Shown piece after piece: positions 1 through 5,845 of a DNA stretch of 5,918 bases. Under the pieces are notes generated by a model. The model was not told the origin of the DNA and did no database searches. It worked only from the letters and a program-made list of their open reading frames with translations. The DNA is from Pseudomonadota bacterium. GTDB lineage: Bacteria > Pseudomonadota > Gammaproteobacteria > Steroidobacterales > Steroidobacteraceae. The DNA lies in contig JAKAZP010000168.1 of assembly GCA_021815905.1 (NCBI GenBank), positions 1 to 5,918 on the forward strand, read 5' to 3'. Every line of letters starts with the position of its first letter. The first letter of the stretch is position 1. The translations under genes and the position numbers were made by a program.

Positions 1-629
1 CCCTTCTTGTCGGCGTGGTGCGCGTTCATCTCCTGCTGATCGAGATAACGGTAGGTCTTGGCGGTCAAAGTGAGGGAGAGCTGGTCGTAGGCCTTCTCGG
101 TCGTCGGCGTGATCGAGATGTCGTGCAGCGTCACGATCCGGGGGAGCGCCGCGATGCCGCTCACGAACTCGCCGAACTGGTGATAGCTGCCGGTCAGCAC
201 CATCTTGATGGGCAGGACCGCGTAGAACTCCTGGTCCTGCTCCGGACCGGGCTGAAAGAGCTTCTGCTGCAGGCCCGCGCCGAGAGCGGTCTGGGAGATG
301 TCGACGAGCAGGTTCGGCACCTGCGTCTTGCCCGGGAGCTGGCGCAGGAGCGCGCCGAAGGAGCGCCTGAGGTCCTTCAGCTGCTGCTTGTAGACCGCGA
401 GGTTCACGGCCTTCGCGTGCTTGGCGACGAACTCCTGCTTGAGGGTCGTCTCCTCGGCCTCCTTCTTCTGCAGCTCCGGCCGTACGCCCTGCCACACGAA
501 GAAGTACACGAGAGCGAGCGTCAGCACGACGAAGGCCGCGCCCACCGCGCCGCCGCGCACCGCGAGCGGCCACCGGCCGGGCTCCCGCGGGTCGAGATCG
601 CGCAACTCCTCGAGGAAGGACAGGTTCAT
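1..629 (-). CDS. pilO: PilO, type IV pilus inner-membrane alignment protein (3' end outside window)
   Basis: PilO is a bitopic inner-membrane protein that pairs with PilN through periplasmic domains and, with PilM and PilP, connects the pilus motor to the PilQ secretin. I translated 209 codons from the ATG at 629-627 without meeting a stop, so the gene leaves the window at the left edge. PilO proteins are usually a little over 200 residues, so only the tail should be missing. The N-terminus MNLSFLEELRDLDPREPGRW is typical of the family. A membrane segment spans about residues 24-47, followed by a charged heptad-like stretch (about 50-90) and a globular periplasmic domain with LVDISQTALGAGLQ, SYHQFGEFVSGIAALPRIV and LTLTAKTYRYL. 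The start overlaps the pilN stop as ATGA, and GGAG lies 7 nt upstream (637-640 on the plus strand). Identification rests on this sequence pattern plus the pilM-pilN context. Confidence 0.96.
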   Translation of the reverse strand, partial: MNLSFLEELRDLDPREPGRWPLAVRGGAVGAAFVVLTLALVYFFVWQGVRPELQKKEAEETTLKQEFVAKHAKAVNLAVYKQQLKDLRRSFGALLRQLPGKTQVPNLLVDISQTALGAGLQQKLFQPGPEQDQEFYAVLPIKMVLTGSYHQFGEFVSGIAALPRIVTLHDISITPTTEKAYDQLSLTLTAKTYRYLDQQEMNAHHADKK

Positions 630-1240
630 CGCTGCGCTCCGGAGCGGGCCATGAAGCGCCGTGCGGCCGCGCCGCTCAGCGGGCCGGCGAGGTTGCTCTC
701 GCTCGGGCCGGAAGACTCCTGCGCATCGAGGGTGAAGTTCGAGCCGAACGCGCCCTTGGAGGACTGGATCACCTCGAGCGTCGGGTTCTTCAGCCACTGC
801 GAATGATCGATGTTGCGCATGAACGCCGACACGCGCGTGCTCGACTGCGCCACCCCGGTGAACTTCAGGTGATCTCCGCTTTGCGTGATGCCCGTGAGAT
901 AGACGCCGTTCGGCAGCGTCTTCACGATCTGATCGAACACGTGCACGATCTCGGGCCGCGAGCGCTGCAGCTTCTCGATGATCTGCATGCGGGCGATGAA
1001 CTTGCGCTTGGTGGCCTCGAGGTTGTTGATCTCCTCGATCTGCCGGTCGAGGTACGCGATCTGCGCGCGCAAGGTGGCGTTGCGGCTCTCCTGCGCGTCG
1101 ATGAGCCCGCTGTAGAGCAGATAGACCGCGAAGGTGACCAGGCAGGCCGAGAGCGCCGCGACGCCGAGGGCGACCAGGAATGCGAGCTTGCGCTCGTTGC
1201 GCTCGGCCTCACGCCAGGGAAGTAGGTTGATGCGTGGCAT
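626..1240 (-). CDS. pilN: PilN, type IV pilus inner-membrane alignment protein
   Basis: PilN anchors cytoplasmic PilM to the membrane through its short N-terminal tail and dimerises with PilO in the periplasm. The 204-residue product has the signature tail MPRINLLPWREAE (residues 1-13; the INLLP segment is the known PilM-binding peptide), one membrane span at about 19-43, a coiled-coil-like region at about 45-95 (QIAYLDRQIEEINNLEATK) and a small periplasmic alpha/beta domain (VFDQIVKTLPNGVYLTGITQ onward). A longer reading in the same frame would start at 1417 inside pilM. I chose the ATG at 1240-1238 because it places INLLPW at the N-terminus, has GGAG 9 nt upstream and overlaps the pilM stop as TGATG. 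Length and organisation are normal for the family. The C-terminal residues after the domain (SGPSESNLAGPLSGAAARRF) are low in complexity and probably flexible. Confidence 0.97.
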   Translation of the reverse strand: MPRINLLPWREAERNERKLAFLVALGVAALSACLVTFAVYLLYSGLIDAQESRNATLRAQIAYLDRQIEEINNLEATKRKFIARMQIIEKLQRSRPEIVHVFDQIVKTLPNGVYLTGITQSGDHLKFTGVAQSSTRVSAFMRNIDHSQWLKNPTLEVIQSSKGAFGSNFTLDAQESSGPSESNLAGPLSGAAARRFMARSGAQR

Positions 1241-2304
1241 CAGTCGAAGCTCCGCAATGCCAGGCCGCACGCCGTGAGGAGTGCGGTCGCGTCCCGTTGC
1301 ACCGCCTGCGCCCTGGCGCGCGAGGACAGCTTCATCTGCCCGAGCGGTTCGCCCTTTTCCGCGGCGATGCCCACCCGGCTGCCGATCACGTCGGCGACGC
1401 CCGGGATGTTGGCGCAACCGCCGCAGACCAGGATCTTCTCCGGCTGCTCGCGCCCCGAGCCCGAGGCGAGATAGAACTGCAGCGACCGGCTCACCTGCTG
1501 GGTCATGTCGTCGATGAACGGATCGAGCACCTCGACCTGATAGTTGCCGGGGAGCCCGCCTTCCTTCTTCGCGCGTCCGGCCTCCTCCATGGAGAGGCCG
1601 TAGGTGCGCATGATCTCCTCGGTGAGCTGCTGCCCGCCGAAGGCGAAATCGCGCGTGTAGACGACCTTGAGATTGCGCAGCACGCTGAAGGTGGTGCTGC
1701 TCGCCCCGAAGTCGACCAGGCCGATCGTCCGGTCGATGCCGCCGTCGGGCATCTGATGCGTCATCAGCTTGCAGGCGTTCTCGAGCGCGAACGCCTCGAC
1801 GTCGACGATCCTCGCGGACAGGCCCGCGGCCTTGACGGCCGCCTGGCGCTGCTCGACGTTCTCGGTGCGCGTCGCGACGAGCAGCACGTCGTTCGACTCG
1901 GTGTCCTTCTCCGAAGGCCCGAGCACCTCGAAGTCATAGCTGACCTCGTCCATGGGGAAGGGGATGTACTGGTCGGCCTGCATCTCGACTTGGGACTCGA
2001 GATCGCCTGCGCGCAGCGACCGGGGCATCTGAATGATCTTGGTGATCGCGGCATCGCCGCTGATCGCGACGGCGACCTCGGTGCTCTTGGCGCCCGAGCG
2101 CTTCACCGCGCGGCGCACGGCCTCGCCCACCGCCTCGGCATCGACGATCGCCTTCTCGTTGATGGCGTTCTGGGGCGTGGGCTCGGCGGCATAGGCCTCC
2201 ACGCGGTACTGCCCCCCTCCCATGCTAAGCTCGATGAGCTTGACCGAGGACGTCGTTATGTCAAGTCCCAGGAGGGGCCGGTACTTGCGCTGGAAAAGGA
2301 ACAT
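1240..2304 (-). CDS. pilM: PilM, actin-like ATP-binding type IV pilus assembly protein
   Basis: PilM is a cytoplasmic FtsA/actin-like protein that binds ATP and the N-terminal tail of PilN, forming the inner face of the pilus alignment complex. The 354-residue product is full length for the family. Visible motifs are the phosphate-1 loop LGLDITTSSVKLIEL (12-26, with Asp15), the phosphate-2 segment GLVDFGASSTTFSVL (195-209, with Asp198), the adenosine-binding segment ILVCGGCANIPGV (291-303) and the family block DQYIPFPMDEVSYDF (111-125). It is the first gene of the operon. The ATG at 2304-2302 is preceded by AAAAGG with 8 nt spacing. Upstream lie a stem-loop that covers this site, a candidate proximal promoter and, further away, a c-di-GMP riboswitch on the same strand, so both transcriptional and RNA-level control are likely. 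Confidence 0.98.
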   Translation of the reverse strand: MFLFQRKYRPLLGLDITTSSVKLIELSMGGGQYRVEAYAAEPTPQNAINEKAIVDAEAVGEAVRRAVKRSGAKSTEVAVAISGDAAITKIIQMPRSLRAGDLESQVEMQADQYIPFPMDEVSYDFEVLGPSEKDTESNDVLLVATRTENVEQRQAAVKAAGLSARIVDVEAFALENACKLMTHQMPDGGIDRTIGLVDFGASSTTFSVLRNLKVVYTRDFAFGGQQLTEEIMRTYGLSMEEAGRAKKEGGLPGNYQVEVLDPFIDDMTQQVSRSLQFYLASGSGREQPEKILVCGGCANIPGVADVIGSRVGIAAEKGEPLGQMKLSSRARAQAVQRDATALLTACGLALRSFD

Positions 2305-2314
2305 TATATTAACC

Positions 2315-2338
2315 TTTTCAGGTTCTTATGCCTGAAAA
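2315..2338 (-). repeat. 8-bp perfect inverted repeat in the pilM leader, overlapping its ribosome-binding site
   Basis: The plus strand reads TTTTCAGG (2315-2322), an 8-nt spacer and CCTGAAAA (2331-2338), which are exact reverse complements. In the pilM transcript this gives a stem whose 3' arm (CCTGAAAA) runs into the GAAAAGG Shine-Dalgarno sequence, about 10 nt before the ATG. It could be an RNA stem-loop limiting ribosome access or a DNA operator downstream of the candidate proximal promoter. The symmetry is seen directly; the function is inferred. Confidence 0.6.
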
Positions 2339-2365
2339 TGACCGCCCCATGTGAACGCCAGCTGC

Positions 2366-2394
2366 ACTATATATCAGCGCAAAGTTAAATTGAA
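2366..2394 (-). promoter_or_regulatory. Candidate proximal sigma70-type promoter for pilM
   Basis: On the minus strand, TTCAAT (2394-2389) is followed after exactly 17 nt by TATAGT (2371-2366). The -10 matches the TATAAT consensus at five of six positions and the -35 at three. The block sits in an AT-rich island (about 2295-2400) inside otherwise GC-rich DNA. It predicts a start near 2359 and a leader of about 55 nt. This would transcribe pilM without the upstream riboswitch. No sigma54 motif was found here. Confidence 0.45.
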
Positions 2395-2588
2395 CGTGAG
2401 GCGGCTCACGGAAAGCGCGAACCGGCCCAGGTTCACCTTCCGCAGCGCGCAAAATGCCGAAGGCGTCACGAAGAGCCGGCTTCGGATGGATATCGGGATA
2501 CTTCGCCTTGACCAAGCGTGCCTGGAGACGAGCCTCAAGCAGAAGGTCTGGCACGCGCCATGCGAGGACGGCCTCGAACTTCCAGACC

Positions 2589-2606
2589 CCGTGCGTGGTC
2601 GCACGG
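2589..2606 (-). other. Strong GC hairpin downstream of the aptamer (possible expression platform)
   Basis: CCGTGCG and CGCACGG pair perfectly across the four-base loop ACCA (minus strand), about 15-30 nt after the aptamer's 3' edge. No U-tract follows, so it is not an ordinary intrinsic terminator. Just upstream, AACCC (2619-2615) can pair with GGGTT (2639-2635) of the aptamer core, which would be mutually exclusive with ligand binding. Together these could form the switching part of the riboswitch. The stem is seen; its regulatory role is inferred. Confidence 0.4.
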
Positions 2607-2621
2607 AGCAACGTGGGTTAA

Positions 2622-2715
2622 TGTTCGGACCGGCAACCCCGCTGTCATAGGCACGTGCGTCCCTTAGACCGGAGGCTTTGCGTCCCCACCTTTCGGTGAG
2701 TTTGCCCTGAAACGG
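2622..2715 (-). ncRNA. Cyclic-di-GMP class I (GEMM-I) riboswitch aptamer upstream of pilM
   Basis: Read on the minus strand, the segment follows the class I c-di-GMP aptamer (compare the Vibrio cholerae Vc2 RNA). In order it shows CAGGGCAAAC (2709-2700); a hairpin CTCACC-GAAA-GGTGGG with the GAAA tetraloop at 2694-2691; the core GGGACGCAAAGCCTCCGG (2686-2669); a second hairpin carrying tetraloop-receptor halves TCTAAG (2668-2663) and TATGA (2649-2645); then AGCGGGGTTGCCGG (2643-2630). The G expected to contact one guanine of the ligand (third G of AGGGC, 2705) and the C expected to pair with the other (2633) are both present. The G, rather than A, at the first site favours c-di-GMP over 3',3'-cGAMP. 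GTTT (2713-2710) can pair with GAAC (2626-2623) to close the outer helix. It is oriented toward pilM, fitting known control of surface appendages by c-di-GMP. Outer boundaries are approximate. Confidence 0.92.
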
Positions 2716-2720
2716 GCGTT

Positions 2721-2749
2721 ACTATGCATAGCGCCTGCCGGTAGCGCAA
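2721..2749 (-). promoter_or_regulatory. Candidate promoter for the riboswitch/pilM leader transcript
   Basis: On the minus strand, TTGCGC (2749-2744) is separated by 17 nt from CATAGT (2726-2721), matching consensus at three of six and four of six positions. The predicted start near 2714 coincides with the 5' edge of the aptamer, which supports the call despite the modest hexamers. The -10 region lies within the perfect palindrome CTATGCATAG (2722-2731), so the same DNA could also be read in the ponA direction. No confident ponA promoter could be assigned. Confidence 0.4.
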
Positions 2750-2768
2750 GCAGAGAGAGTCATTTTCT

Positions 2769-5222
2769 GTGAAATGGAAGCATTTTCGGATTCCGGTCAT
2801 CGCTGCGGCGACTGTGATGTTGATCACACTGTGCGGGCTGTACGCGTACGCCTGCACGTACGTGTACCTCGAGCCCTCGCTCCCGACGCTCGGGCAGATG
2901 CGGCACGTGGAATTGAAGGTGCCGCTGCGGGTGTACACCGTCGGCGGACAGCTGATTGCCCAGATCGGCGCCGAGCAGCGCACACCGGTGAGCTACGACC
3001 AGATCCCGCCGCTGCTGCGTGAGGCGTTTCTCGCGGCCGAGGATCACAATTTCTTCCACGAGGGCGGCATCAGCCTGCTCGGCATCGCCCGCGCGGCGAT
3101 CATCGATCTCATCGCGGGACGCAAGGTTCAAGGCGGCAGCACCATCACCATGCAGACCGCCCGCAACATGTTCCTGACGCTCGACAAGACCTTCCGCCGC
3201 AAGCTCCAGGAGACCTTCGTCGTCTACGAGATGGACCATACCTTCACCAAGGACGAGATCTTCCGGCTCTATCTCAACGTCATCTTCTTCGGCCAGCGCT
3301 CCTACGGCGTGGCGGCGGCGGCGCAGACCTACTTCGGCAAGAGCCTGAATCAGCTCACCCTGCCCGAGGTGGCGACCCTCGCCGGCATTCCGCAGGCGCC
3401 CTCGCTCTATAACCCGATCGTGCATCCGCACCTGGCGGCGGCACGCCGCAAGTACGTGCTGCAGAGGATGCTCGCCTTGGGCTACATCGACCCGGCGCAG
3501 GCGCAGGAAGCCAACCAGACCCCGATCGATGCGCGGCCGCACGCCCCACGGGTGTACGTGCAGGCGCCCTACGTCGCGGAGATGGTGCGCGAGGAGATGC
3601 TGCGCCGTTACGGCCCCGATGCGACCACCGCGGGCTACAGCGTCTACACGACGCTCGACGGGCGGCTGCAGGAGGCGGCGAACCGCGCCGTCGAGCTCGG
3701 GCTGATCCGTTACGACCGGCGCCACGGCTGGCGCGGCCCCCTCGGGCGCACCGTGCTCGCATCCGACGCCACGCCGAGCCAGTTGCAGGCGCTCGTCGAT
3801 GAGTACGCCCCGATCGGCCTGCTCTCCCCGGCGGTGGTGGTGCAGGTCGGCGATCGCAGCGCCGAGGTCTACGTGCGCGCGCACGGATTCGCGGAGATCG
3901 CCTGGAACGGGCTGTCCTGGGCGCGCAAGGAGCTCGGCAGCGAGAGCGTGGGCCCGGCGCCGAAGACGGCGGCCGACGTGCTCGCCCGCGGGGACGTCGT
4001 GTACGTGGTCGCGGACGATGCCGGGCACGCCCAGCTCGCGCAGGTGCCGCAGGCGCAGAGCGCGCTCGTGGCGCTCAATCCGAACGACGGCGCCGTCGCG
4101 GCGCTGGTCGGCGGGTTCGACTACTTCACCAACAAGTTCAACCGGGCGACCGATGCCAAGCGGCTGCCGGGCTCGGGATTCAAGCCCTTCTACTATTCCG
4201 CGGCGCTCCAGGACGGCTTCACCCCGGCGAGCACGCTGCTCAACGCGCCGCTCGTCGTCGGGGGCAACGGCCTCGAGAGCACGTGGCGCCCGGAGAACGA
4301 CACCGGCTCCTTCAGCGGTCCGGTGCGGCTGCGCGTGGCGCTCGCCCACTCGCTCAATCTCGTCTCGATCCGCCTCATGCGCGATCTCGGCACTCCGTAC
4401 GTGACCCGGTACGCGACCCGCTTCGGATTCGATCCGAAGCAGTTGCCGCAGAACCTGACGCTCGCGCTCGGGACGCTGCGCGTCACGCCGCTGCAGATGG
4501 CGAGCGCGTACTCGGTGTTCGCGAACGGCGGCTTCCGCGTGCAGCCCTACTTCATCGATCGGATCGTGGACGCCTCGGGCAAGGTCATCTGGCAGGCGAC
4601 ACCGCAAATCGCCACTCCGGCTTTCCTTCCGCAGGCCCCCGCGGGCCTGAAGAGCGTGAGCGCGCGAACCCCGCCCGCACGGCCCGCCGAGGGCGCGCTG
4701 ACCACGGACCCCGGAGCGCTGCCCTCGAGCGAGGTCGCTCCGCGCGTCATCACGCCGCAGAACGACTACATCATGACTTCCATGATGAAGGACGTCATCA
4801 AGTACGGCACCGGAGTCGCCGCGCGCGCATTGGGACGCGATGACATCGCGGGCAAGACCGGCACGACCAACGACTGGCGCGATGCCTGGTTCAACGGCTT
4901 CACGCCCGAGATCGTCGCCTCGGTCTGGGTCGGCTTCGACGACAACCGCTCCCTCGGCTGGGACGAGGAGGGCGCGCGCGCGGCGCTGCCCATCTGGATG
5001 TCCTTCATGCGCCAGGCGCTCGCGGGCGTGCCGCAGTGGCAGCGGCCGATGCCCCAGGGCATCGTGACGCTGCGCATCTCGCCCCAGACCGGCGGCCTGG
5101 TGAGTGACGAGAACCCGGAGGGCATTCCGGAGGTCTTCATGGCCAATCACCTGCCCACGGCGGCCCCGGGAGCGGCGCGGGCGAGGGCGGCGAATCAGGC
5201 CGGAGCGGACTCGATATTCTGA
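2769..5222 (+). CDS. ponA (mrcA): Penicillin-binding protein 1A, bifunctional glycosyltransferase/transpeptidase
   Basis: This class A PBP polymerises lipid II into glycan strands and cross-links the peptides at the periplasmic face of the inner membrane. The 817-residue product has a short basic N-terminus and one membrane anchor (about 8-30). The GT51 domain (about 60-235) has candidate catalytic Glu91 in AAEDHNFFHEGG, QGGSTITMQTARN (121-133) and RRKLQETF (143-150). The PBP1A-type YDRRHGWRGP is at 315-324, followed by an OB-like insert (about 325-430). The transpeptidase domain (about 432-740) has Ser469-Gly-Phe-Lys472, Ser528-Leu-Asn530 and Lys696-Thr-Gly698. All three penicilloyl-serine motifs are intact. 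The start is GTG at 2769: an in-frame stop lies at 2742-2744, and the next ATG (codon 17) would cut into the membrane segment. AGAGAGAG (2752-2759) is a weak ribosome-binding site. The gene is divergent from pilM, as in Pseudomonas, and overlaps the next gene by 1 nt. Confidence 0.98.
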   Translation: MKWKHFRIPVIAAATVMLITLCGLYAYACTYVYLEPSLPTLGQMRHVELKVPLRVYTVGGQLIAQIGAEQRTPVSYDQIPPLLREAFLAAEDHNFFHEGGISLLGIARAAIIDLIAGRKVQGGSTITMQTARNMFLTLDKTFRRKLQETFVVYEMDHTFTKDEIFRLYLNVIFFGQRSYGVAAAAQTYFGKSLNQLTLPEVATLAGIPQAPSLYNPIVHPHLAAARRKYVLQRMLALGYIDPAQAQEANQTPIDARPHAPRVYVQAPYVAEMVREEMLRRYGPDATTAGYSVYTTLDGRLQEAANRAVELGLIRYDRRHGWRGPLGRTVLASDATPSQLQALVDEYAPIGLLSPAVVVQVGDRSAEVYVRAHGFAEIAWNGLSWARKELGSESVGPAPKTAADVLARGDVVYVVADDAGHAQLAQVPQAQSALVALNPNDGAVAALVGGFDYFTNKFNRATDAKRLPGSGFKPFYYSAALQDGFTPASTLLNAPLVVGGNGLESTWRPENDTGSFSGPVRLRVALAHSLNLVSIRLMRDLGTPYVTRYATRFGFDPKQLPQNLTLALGTLRVTPLQMASAYSVFANGGFRVQPYFIDRIVDASGKVIWQATPQIATPAFLPQAPAGLKSVSARTPPARPAEGALTTDPGALPSSEVAPRVITPQNDYIMTSMMKDVIKYGTGVAARALGRDDIAGKTGTTNDWRDAWFNGFTPEIVASVWVGFDDNRSLGWDEEGARAALPIWMSFMRQALAGVPQWQRPMPQGIVTLRISPQTGGLVSDENPEGIPEVFMANHLPTAAPGAARARAANQAGADSIF

Positions 5223-5845
5223 TGCCTCACAAACCGAAGCGATACTCGACGCCCCGCGGCGAGAACCTGCGGCGTGCGCTCGCGCAGGAGGCCGCGCGCA
5301 TCATGGCCGAGCACGGCATCCGCGACTTCTTCGTCGCCAAGCGCAAGGCCGCCGAGCGGCTCGGGATGCTCGATGGCGTCGCGGCGTTGCCGAAGAACAC
5401 CGAGATCGAGACGGCGCTCGCGGAGTATCAGCGCCTCTTCGGGGGCGAGTCGCACCTCGAATCCCTGCAGGCGCAGCGCCGCGCGGCGCTGTCGGCGATG
5501 CAGCACCTGCGCGAGTTCGAGCCGCGACTCGTGGGAGCGGTGCTGAGCGGCACGGCGACGGAGTACGCCGAGGTGCAGCTGCACCTCTTTGCCGACTGCG
5601 CCGAGTCGGTGGCGCTGAAGCTCATCGATTCCGGCATCTCGCACGAGGTGACCGAGAAACGCGTGCGCATGAGCGCCGAGCGGGTGCTCGCCTACCCGGG
5701 GCTGCGCTTCGAGCTCGAGGATCAGCCGATCGAAGTCACGGTGTTCCCGCCCGACGGCATCCGCCAGGCGCCGGTGAGCCCGGTCGATGGCCGGCCGATG
5801 CGCCGCGCGAGCGCGGGGGAAGTCGAGGCGCTGCTCGGGGAGTGA
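5222..5845 (+). CDS. Uncharacterised protein with degenerate nucleotidyltransferase-like fold
   Basis: I do not recognise a named gene. The 207-residue product has a basic N-terminus, a helical region (about 14-50) with ARIMAEHGIRDFFVAKRKAA, the block LPKNTEIETALAEYQRLFGG (56-75), then LVGAVLSGTATEYAEVQLHL (103-122), a strand IEVTVFP (170-176) and a C-terminal SPVDGRPMRRAS (186-197). The layout recalls proteobacterial proteins annotated as nucleotidyltransferases with a G-S-x-x-x-G segment followed by S-D-x-D. Here the equivalents are GAVLSG and AEVQ, so the paired catalytic aspartates seem replaced. No signal peptide or membrane span is visible, so it is probably cytoplasmic. The ATG overlaps the ponA stop as TGATG, and the nearest GGAG is about 16 nt upstream, so translation is probably coupled to ponA. 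The family link is from memory of sequence pattern; no function is claimed. Confidence 0.85.
   Translation: MPHKPKRYSTPRGENLRRALAQEAARIMAEHGIRDFFVAKRKAAERLGMLDGVAALPKNTEIETALAEYQRLFGGESHLESLQAQRRAALSAMQHLREFEPRLVGAVLSGTATEYAEVQLHLFADCAESVALKLIDSGISHEVTEKRVRMSAERVLAYPGLRFELEDQPIEVTVFPPDGIRQAPVSPVDGRPMRRASAGEVEALLGE

Follow-up and report, generated by a model that had tools for sequence, protein, structure and literature searches.

Protein effectors are the main route by which c-di-GMP acts on type IV pili in the species studied most closely. RNA-based sensing of cyclic dinucleotides in a pilus gene leader is described in Geobacter metallireducens, in which the pilM riboswitch takes cGAMP as its ligand and acts as a transcriptional ON-switch whose terminator excludes the aptamer fold (PMC9262584). 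In C. difficile, the riboswitch Cdi-2-4 precedes the major pilin gene pilA1 and has a class II aptamer with transcriptional read-through in the presence of c-di-GMP (PMC6200980). The class I c-di-GMP aptamer Vc2 of V. cholerae tfoY is served by several promoters, and those lying within or after the aptamer give sensor-less transcripts, a bypass driven by VpsR (PMC7371385).

The locus described here lies in a 5,918-nt stretch of DNA from a member of the Steroidobacteraceae (the window, by which the whole analyzed stretch is meant), and it resembles each of these systems in part. With G. metallireducens it shares a pilM leader that contains an aptamer of the GEMM fold, and a cyclic dinucleotide as the likely signal; with C. 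difficile, the presence of a c-di-GMP riboswitch on type IV pilus genes; and with V. cholerae, a class I c-di-GMP aptamer accompanied by more than one promoter (predicted here), the gene being pilM and the putative activator site being of CRP type instead of tfoY and VpsR. The Geobacter switch relies on cGAMP and a terminator (PMC9262584). In the window, by contrast, the ligand-bias position is a G, no terminator is consistent across loci, 324 nt separate the aptamer from pilM, and a CRP-type promoter block lies downstream of the aptamer. The original prediction had called an RNA sensor on this operon a direct and less common route of control, which holds in part, but a pilM riboswitch is already known in G. 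metallireducens and a class II riboswitch at pilA1 in C. difficile (PMC9262584 and PMC6200980). Among the matches listed from the open-licence literature, none reported a c-di-GMP riboswitch on pilM in Gammaproteobacteria by its title or the start of its abstract.

The features of the window are listed in Table 1. In one relative (locus L003), the operon continues with pilP and pilQ, and the (PQ) part of the pilMNO(PQ) operon is therefore likely to lie beyond the end of the window, which falls inside pilO. A 207-aa gene following ponA (5222–5845, plus strand) has no Pfam or NCBIfam match. A possible asponA antisense RNA at 2765–3053 reached only 22.1 bits against a gathering score of 113 and was rejected as ponA coding sequence, and an open reading frame of 97 aa in the leader (2318–2611) was rejected as a gene on the grounds that it has no Pfam or NCBIfam match and that leader indels vary between relatives.

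Table 1. Positions of genes, the aptamer and predicted regulatory elements in the window.
Feature	Positions	Strand	Basis or remark
pilO, cut by the window end	3..629	-	PF04350, 174.8 bits
pilN	626..1240	-	PF05137, 77.8 bits
pilM	1240..2304	-	PF11104 (PilM_2), 415 bits; TIGR01175, 365 bits; first gene of the pilMNO(PQ) operon
Leader from aptamer to pilM, 324 nt, without recognised expression platform	2305..2628	-	
Hairpin TTTTCAGG / CCTGAAAA touching the ribosome-binding site, common to both predicted transcripts	2315..2338	-	RNAalifold, 24 leaders
Predicted promoter P2, TTCAATTTAACTTTGCGCTGATATATAGT, extended -10 TGATATATA	2366..2394	-	Leader alignments; after the aptamer
CRP-type site B, CGTGA-GCCGCC-TCACG	2395..2410	.	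Centred near -41.5 of P2
c-di-GMP-I riboswitch aptamer (RF01051)	2629..2716	-	cmscan 78.3 bits, E 9.7e-15; own model 84 bits (partly circular, the window being one of its 31 source rows)
Predicted promoter P1: TTGCGC (2749-2744), 17-nt spacer, CATAGT (2726-2721)	2721..2749	-	Conserved just before the aptamer
ponA (PBP1A), divergent from pilM; 5' codons hold CRP-type site A	2769..5222	+	Transgly, Transpeptidase and PCB_OB domains; TIGR02074, 608.5 bits
CRP-type site A, TGTGA-N6-TCACA	2813..2828	.	Within codons 15-20 of ponA; some 105 bp separate it from the expected start of P1, which lies downstream

The class I c-di-GMP aptamer that had been proposed for the ponA-pilM spacer was borne out by the covariance-model search suggested along with it: the Rfam c-di-GMP-I match runs along the minus strand from 2716 to 2629, covers model positions 1–87 of 87 and lies well above the gathering score (78.3 bits vs. 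35). The motifs and strand given in the original prediction were right, but the ends of its interval (2622–2715) were off by one and seven bases. The minus-strand signature motifs are present as quoted and face pilM (PilM_2, 415 bits); they comprise AGGGCAAAC, a GAAA-capped hairpin, GACGCAAAGCCTCCGG and GCGGGGTTGCCGG. On 46 distinct aptamers, 97.2% of cells are paired under the structure and 12 cells have both sides changed, and the covariation score was reached by none of 500 shuffles. Two further measures on the same aptamers, pairs with a change on both sides (3, matched by 44 of 500 shuffles) and further pair types (15, as high in 383 of 500), did not go beyond chance because the aptamer hardly varies.

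The binding pocket of the window, at positions that we take to correspond to Vc2 numbering including G20, contains a G at the G20 place, the intercalating A and a C in the closing strand. An A instead of a G at the G20 position characterizes GEMM-Ib, the cGAMP type, and such an A was found neither in the window nor in any of 49 aptamers, in which the G is conserved in 48 (the sole exception being a C), the A in 48 and the C in 48 or 49. Since the window and 48 of the 49 aptamers carry this G, c-di-GMP is likely to be the ligand of the window aptamer. Geobacter is only distantly related to this group. A cGAMP-sensing aptamer similar to that of the Geobacter pilM riboswitch, which the shared gene and fold family would favor, is very improbable given the near-invariant G, even though G20 is described as a selectivity factor that biases binding and not as a hard filter (PMC9262584).

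Related loci were taken as the best 80 of 287 confirmed PilM loci from a PilM profile search of genome contigs, with those titles that name a family giving Steroidobacteraceae, and were searched with a model built from 31 aptamers of the group including the window and five other pilM aptamers (partly circular for these). In addition to the window, 47 of the 80 loci have an aptamer that precedes pilM and shares its orientation, with the gap between aptamer and pilM confined to 227–386 nt across the aptamer loci; three of the 80 (L027, L032 and L066) have just 0–113 nt of upstream DNA. Rfam gathering matches were obtained on all five aptamer loci that were re-tested and were absent from the aptamer-less control L035. 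A wider draw of 59 genomes from the order of one relative (this relative included) contained the c-di-GMP-I family in 44, and an aptamer stood at the best pilM locus in 13 of 49 loci by our own model, with which the Rfam and PilM lists set side by side agree; these 49 represent the 58 other genomes, the remaining nine having weaker PilM matches, and some of the 49 have little upstream DNA. The host genomes of the 80 loci carry the c-di-GMP-I family in 78 cases, with 1–9 matches each, and two genomes of the order (G086 and G136) have 21 and 17 matches. Among the 30 best aptamer loci in the host genomes (L081–L110), 20 precede one protein type and four a second, related-looking type, and neither type (e.g., L088 1664–3085 and L097 985–2088) has a Pfam match in the one protein of each that was scanned.

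Mapped onto a 76-row tree of PilM proteins, aptamer presence requires four changes as opposed to 22.8 in shuffles; five loci were omitted from this tree because little upstream DNA was present, the gene was cut or the aptamer was degenerate, and the bootstrap of the tree is not quite settled and its root is undefined. The simplest reading is an old presence of the aptamer followed by a few losses, and within the group, repeated losses of the aptamer seem to have left the CRP-type block in place. At locus L074, a degenerate and shortened aptamer precedes pilM (1924–1989, 32 bits), which is perhaps a decaying riboswitch.

The leader between the aptamer and pilM was searched for an expression platform. 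Weak matches to an intrinsic terminator after the aptamer occur in 19 of 48 leaders, and none is consistent. An anti-aptamer helix about 50–80 nt downstream, suggested by constrained folds of several of the seven loci viewed, was rejected as its complementarity is no better than that of shuffled leaders (mean z of 0.04 over 48 loci, with 3 of 48 at or below 0.05), and the conserved leader block in the same region is unremarkable (mean percentile of 0.52 in 24 leaders). Access to the ribosome-binding site did not differ between forced folds in 40 loci, eight of the 48 having been dropped where the simple motif finder missed a strand. RNAalifold applied to 24 leaders gave no convincing platform, only weak long-range pairing without covariation, and in the hairpin at the ribosome-binding site (Table 1) just one pair has both sides changed, in one sequence. 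C exceeds G in 44 of the 48 leaders, and Rho-dependent termination is a first guess at the mechanism because no consistent intrinsic terminator was found and the leader is C-rich, the C excess being just a hint. A plasmid search with the leader gave no match. A block around CTTGGACA and CATTCGTTGA (2530–2485, minus strand) has fixed spacing and appears by eye to be conserved in many close relatives, and is weaker in the window.

Class II CRP-dependent promoters carry GTGA-N6-TCAC centred near -41.5, a weak -35 and a good -10 element. This layout, with GTGA-N6-TCAC at a fixed distance to the -10, recurs in the window in predicted promoter P2, where site B has its centre at 2402.5, near -41.5 of an expected start at about 2361 (some 57 nt before pilM), and where the order of elements is CGTGA-N6-TCACG followed by TTCAATTTAAC..TGATATATAGT. 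An exact GTGA-N6-TCAC stands no more than 200 nt from pilM in 66 of 78 loci including the window (shuffles, 0.1%), and allowing one mismatch raises this to 73 of 78 (shuffles, 4.0%). The exact form occurs in 41 of the 48 aptamer-bearing loci and in 25 of the 30 without a called aptamer. All 66 exact copies are followed by ATTTRAC and 50 by TATATA, whose distance from site B is identical (22) in 49 of the 50; the other 16 loci have different -10-like sequences or none evident. Both P1 and P2 were read from the leader alignments post hoc and were missed by a simple consensus sigma-70 scan of the window. Judged by its position after the aptamer, the P2 block would yield a pilM transcript without the sensor.

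The same palindrome could instead be read as RNA, with P1 as the sole promoter, the riboswitch governing the whole operon and the CRP-like palindrome together with TATATAGT serving as the expression platform, in which a hairpin CGUGAG-NNNN-CUCACG followed by UUCAAUUU would form a weak intrinsic terminator. In some loci the palindrome can indeed form a hairpin of 5–7 bp with T-rich sequence after it, 16 of the 19 terminator-like matches fall on it, and a scan of the window gave a match at 2410–2395, but in the scan of the 48 leaders the only match of the window was elsewhere than at the palindrome. The palindrome is, moreover, exact in most of the loci that have no called aptamer to serve, the next stretch in most core loci (TTCAATTT) is too T-poor for the terminator scan, and, as in a CRP site, constant arms flank six variable bases, so that a sole P1 with a terminator at this place is unlikely.

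Predicted promoter P1 has a block that ends four bases ahead of the aptamer, and its expected start, at about 2714, coincides with the aptamer 5' end. The P1 pattern TTG-N-YAWADT is found in 39 of 61 aptamer loci and TATGCATAGTA in 35 of 61, and GCATATT variants were seen by eye at this place in several of the remaining aptamer loci. In the window, TACTATGCATAG at 2720–2731 has the minus-strand -10 of P1 overlapping TACTAT on the plus strand, and P1 and a ponA promoter might share one symmetric -10.

A second CRP-type site, site A, differs from the usual class II arrangement in that it falls within the reading frame of the divergently transcribed ponA. Allowing one mismatch, it lies upstream of the aptamer in 31 of 60 aptamer loci, none of them among the 13 from the wider draw. 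At the homologous ponA codons, it was found in 21 of 27 loci with the aptamer as opposed to none of 22 without, as read in the 49 of 81 loci where a simple motif located the ponA start, the frame being probably incorrect for one of the 22 (L053). Of the six aptamer loci without site A, five belong to an outer clade and the sixth (L065) is a long-branch row, and aptamer and site A are jointly absent from two separate clades of the pilM tree. The lineages without site A are few and represent about two independent losses, so the co-occurrence of site A and aptamer is suggestive only. The codons at site A, which lend supporting evidence only, are biased toward ACA (29 of 31) and a third-base T (27 of 31) in comparison with 4.9% and 7.6% elsewhere in ponA, in loci that had been pre-selected for at most two mismatches to site A (15 of 48 dropped for mismatches or lacking sequence, and two more for short frames). 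As it is missing from 29 of the 60 aptamer loci, including all 13 of the wider draw, site A is a feature of closer relatives only.

A candidate regulator for such sites occurs in the group: of 20 genomes of relatives, 19 have a protein that scores above the cut-off of the CRP equivalog NF008732; the aptamer-bearing genome G020, of uncertain completeness, has no CRP over this cut-off. The scores of protein L161 are 257 bits for the catabolite gene activator (CRP) and 254 for Vfr, but 213 for the catabolite activation-like protein 3iwz, which we take to be Xanthomonas CLP, and L161 aligns at the RS residues that presumably form part of the cAMP pocket. A c-di-GMP-binding regulator of CLP type was rejected on the lower score with 3iwz, in the comparison of this one protein. 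Because L161 scores higher with CRP and Vfr, the better guess is a cAMP-type regulator rather than a c-di-GMP-binding CLP.

The original prediction had placed the pilMNO(PQ) operon under the riboswitch. The orientation and recurrence of the aptamer before pilM are supported, but with a CRP-type promoter block after the aptamer and no expression platform found, the claim is narrowed to the P1 transcript, and the aptamer probably controls only part of pilM operon expression. In the arrangement that we consider moderately probable, P1 would start an RNA whose first bases are the aptamer and which would run about 400 nt into pilM, so that the c-di-GMP class I riboswitch would head the distal of two pilMNOPQ transcripts, while P2, with its layout of a class II CRP/Vfr-dependent promoter, would supply pilM mRNA that bypasses the sensor. 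P1 may be served by its own upstream CRP-type site inside ponA, and cAMP-CRP acting at both promoters would then be combined with c-di-GMP acting on the P1 transcript only; we infer that both promoters are used and that CRP binds at them. Confidence in this whole model is slightly reduced by the partial selection behind the codon test and by the limitation of site A to closer relatives.

It is also conceivable that the P1 RNA ends within the leader, as an attenuated stub or an independent small RNA that responds to c-di-GMP, with pilM expressed from P2 alone and little effect of the aptamer on pili. The long leader with its poorly conserved middle and the conserved downstream promoter block would fit such an RNA, Vc2 of V. 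cholerae reportedly controls a small RNA encoded upstream (cited in PMC7371385), and in Bacillus a long-platform riboswitch of class I left expression unchanged with c-di-GMP (PMC11218506), a caution that an aptamer may be present without functioning. The bounded distance between aptamer and pilM and the invariable pilM sense in 47 loci argue for a link to pilM, however, and make a detached stub improbable.

Under the preferred two-promoter reading, initiation at the operon probably responds to cAMP-CRP, while c-di-GMP is sensed on the P1 transcript alone, and the locus illustrates that some transcripts of a gene may escape a riboswitch that lies upstream of it. With an RNA sensor of c-di-GMP retained at the alignment-complex operon across related genomes, beside CRP-type blocks, the locus offers a testable meeting of two second messengers in one leader. 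More tentatively, the two could form a gate in which CRP acts at two promoters, one of them from a site in ponA codons, and the riboswitch passes or stops the distal polymerase before P2, and a polymerase that is let through may in turn occlude the CRP-driven P2. If this gate, which we regard as possible though doubtful, were true, the supply of the alignment complex would be tied to both cAMP and c-di-GMP, in opposite or combined ways.
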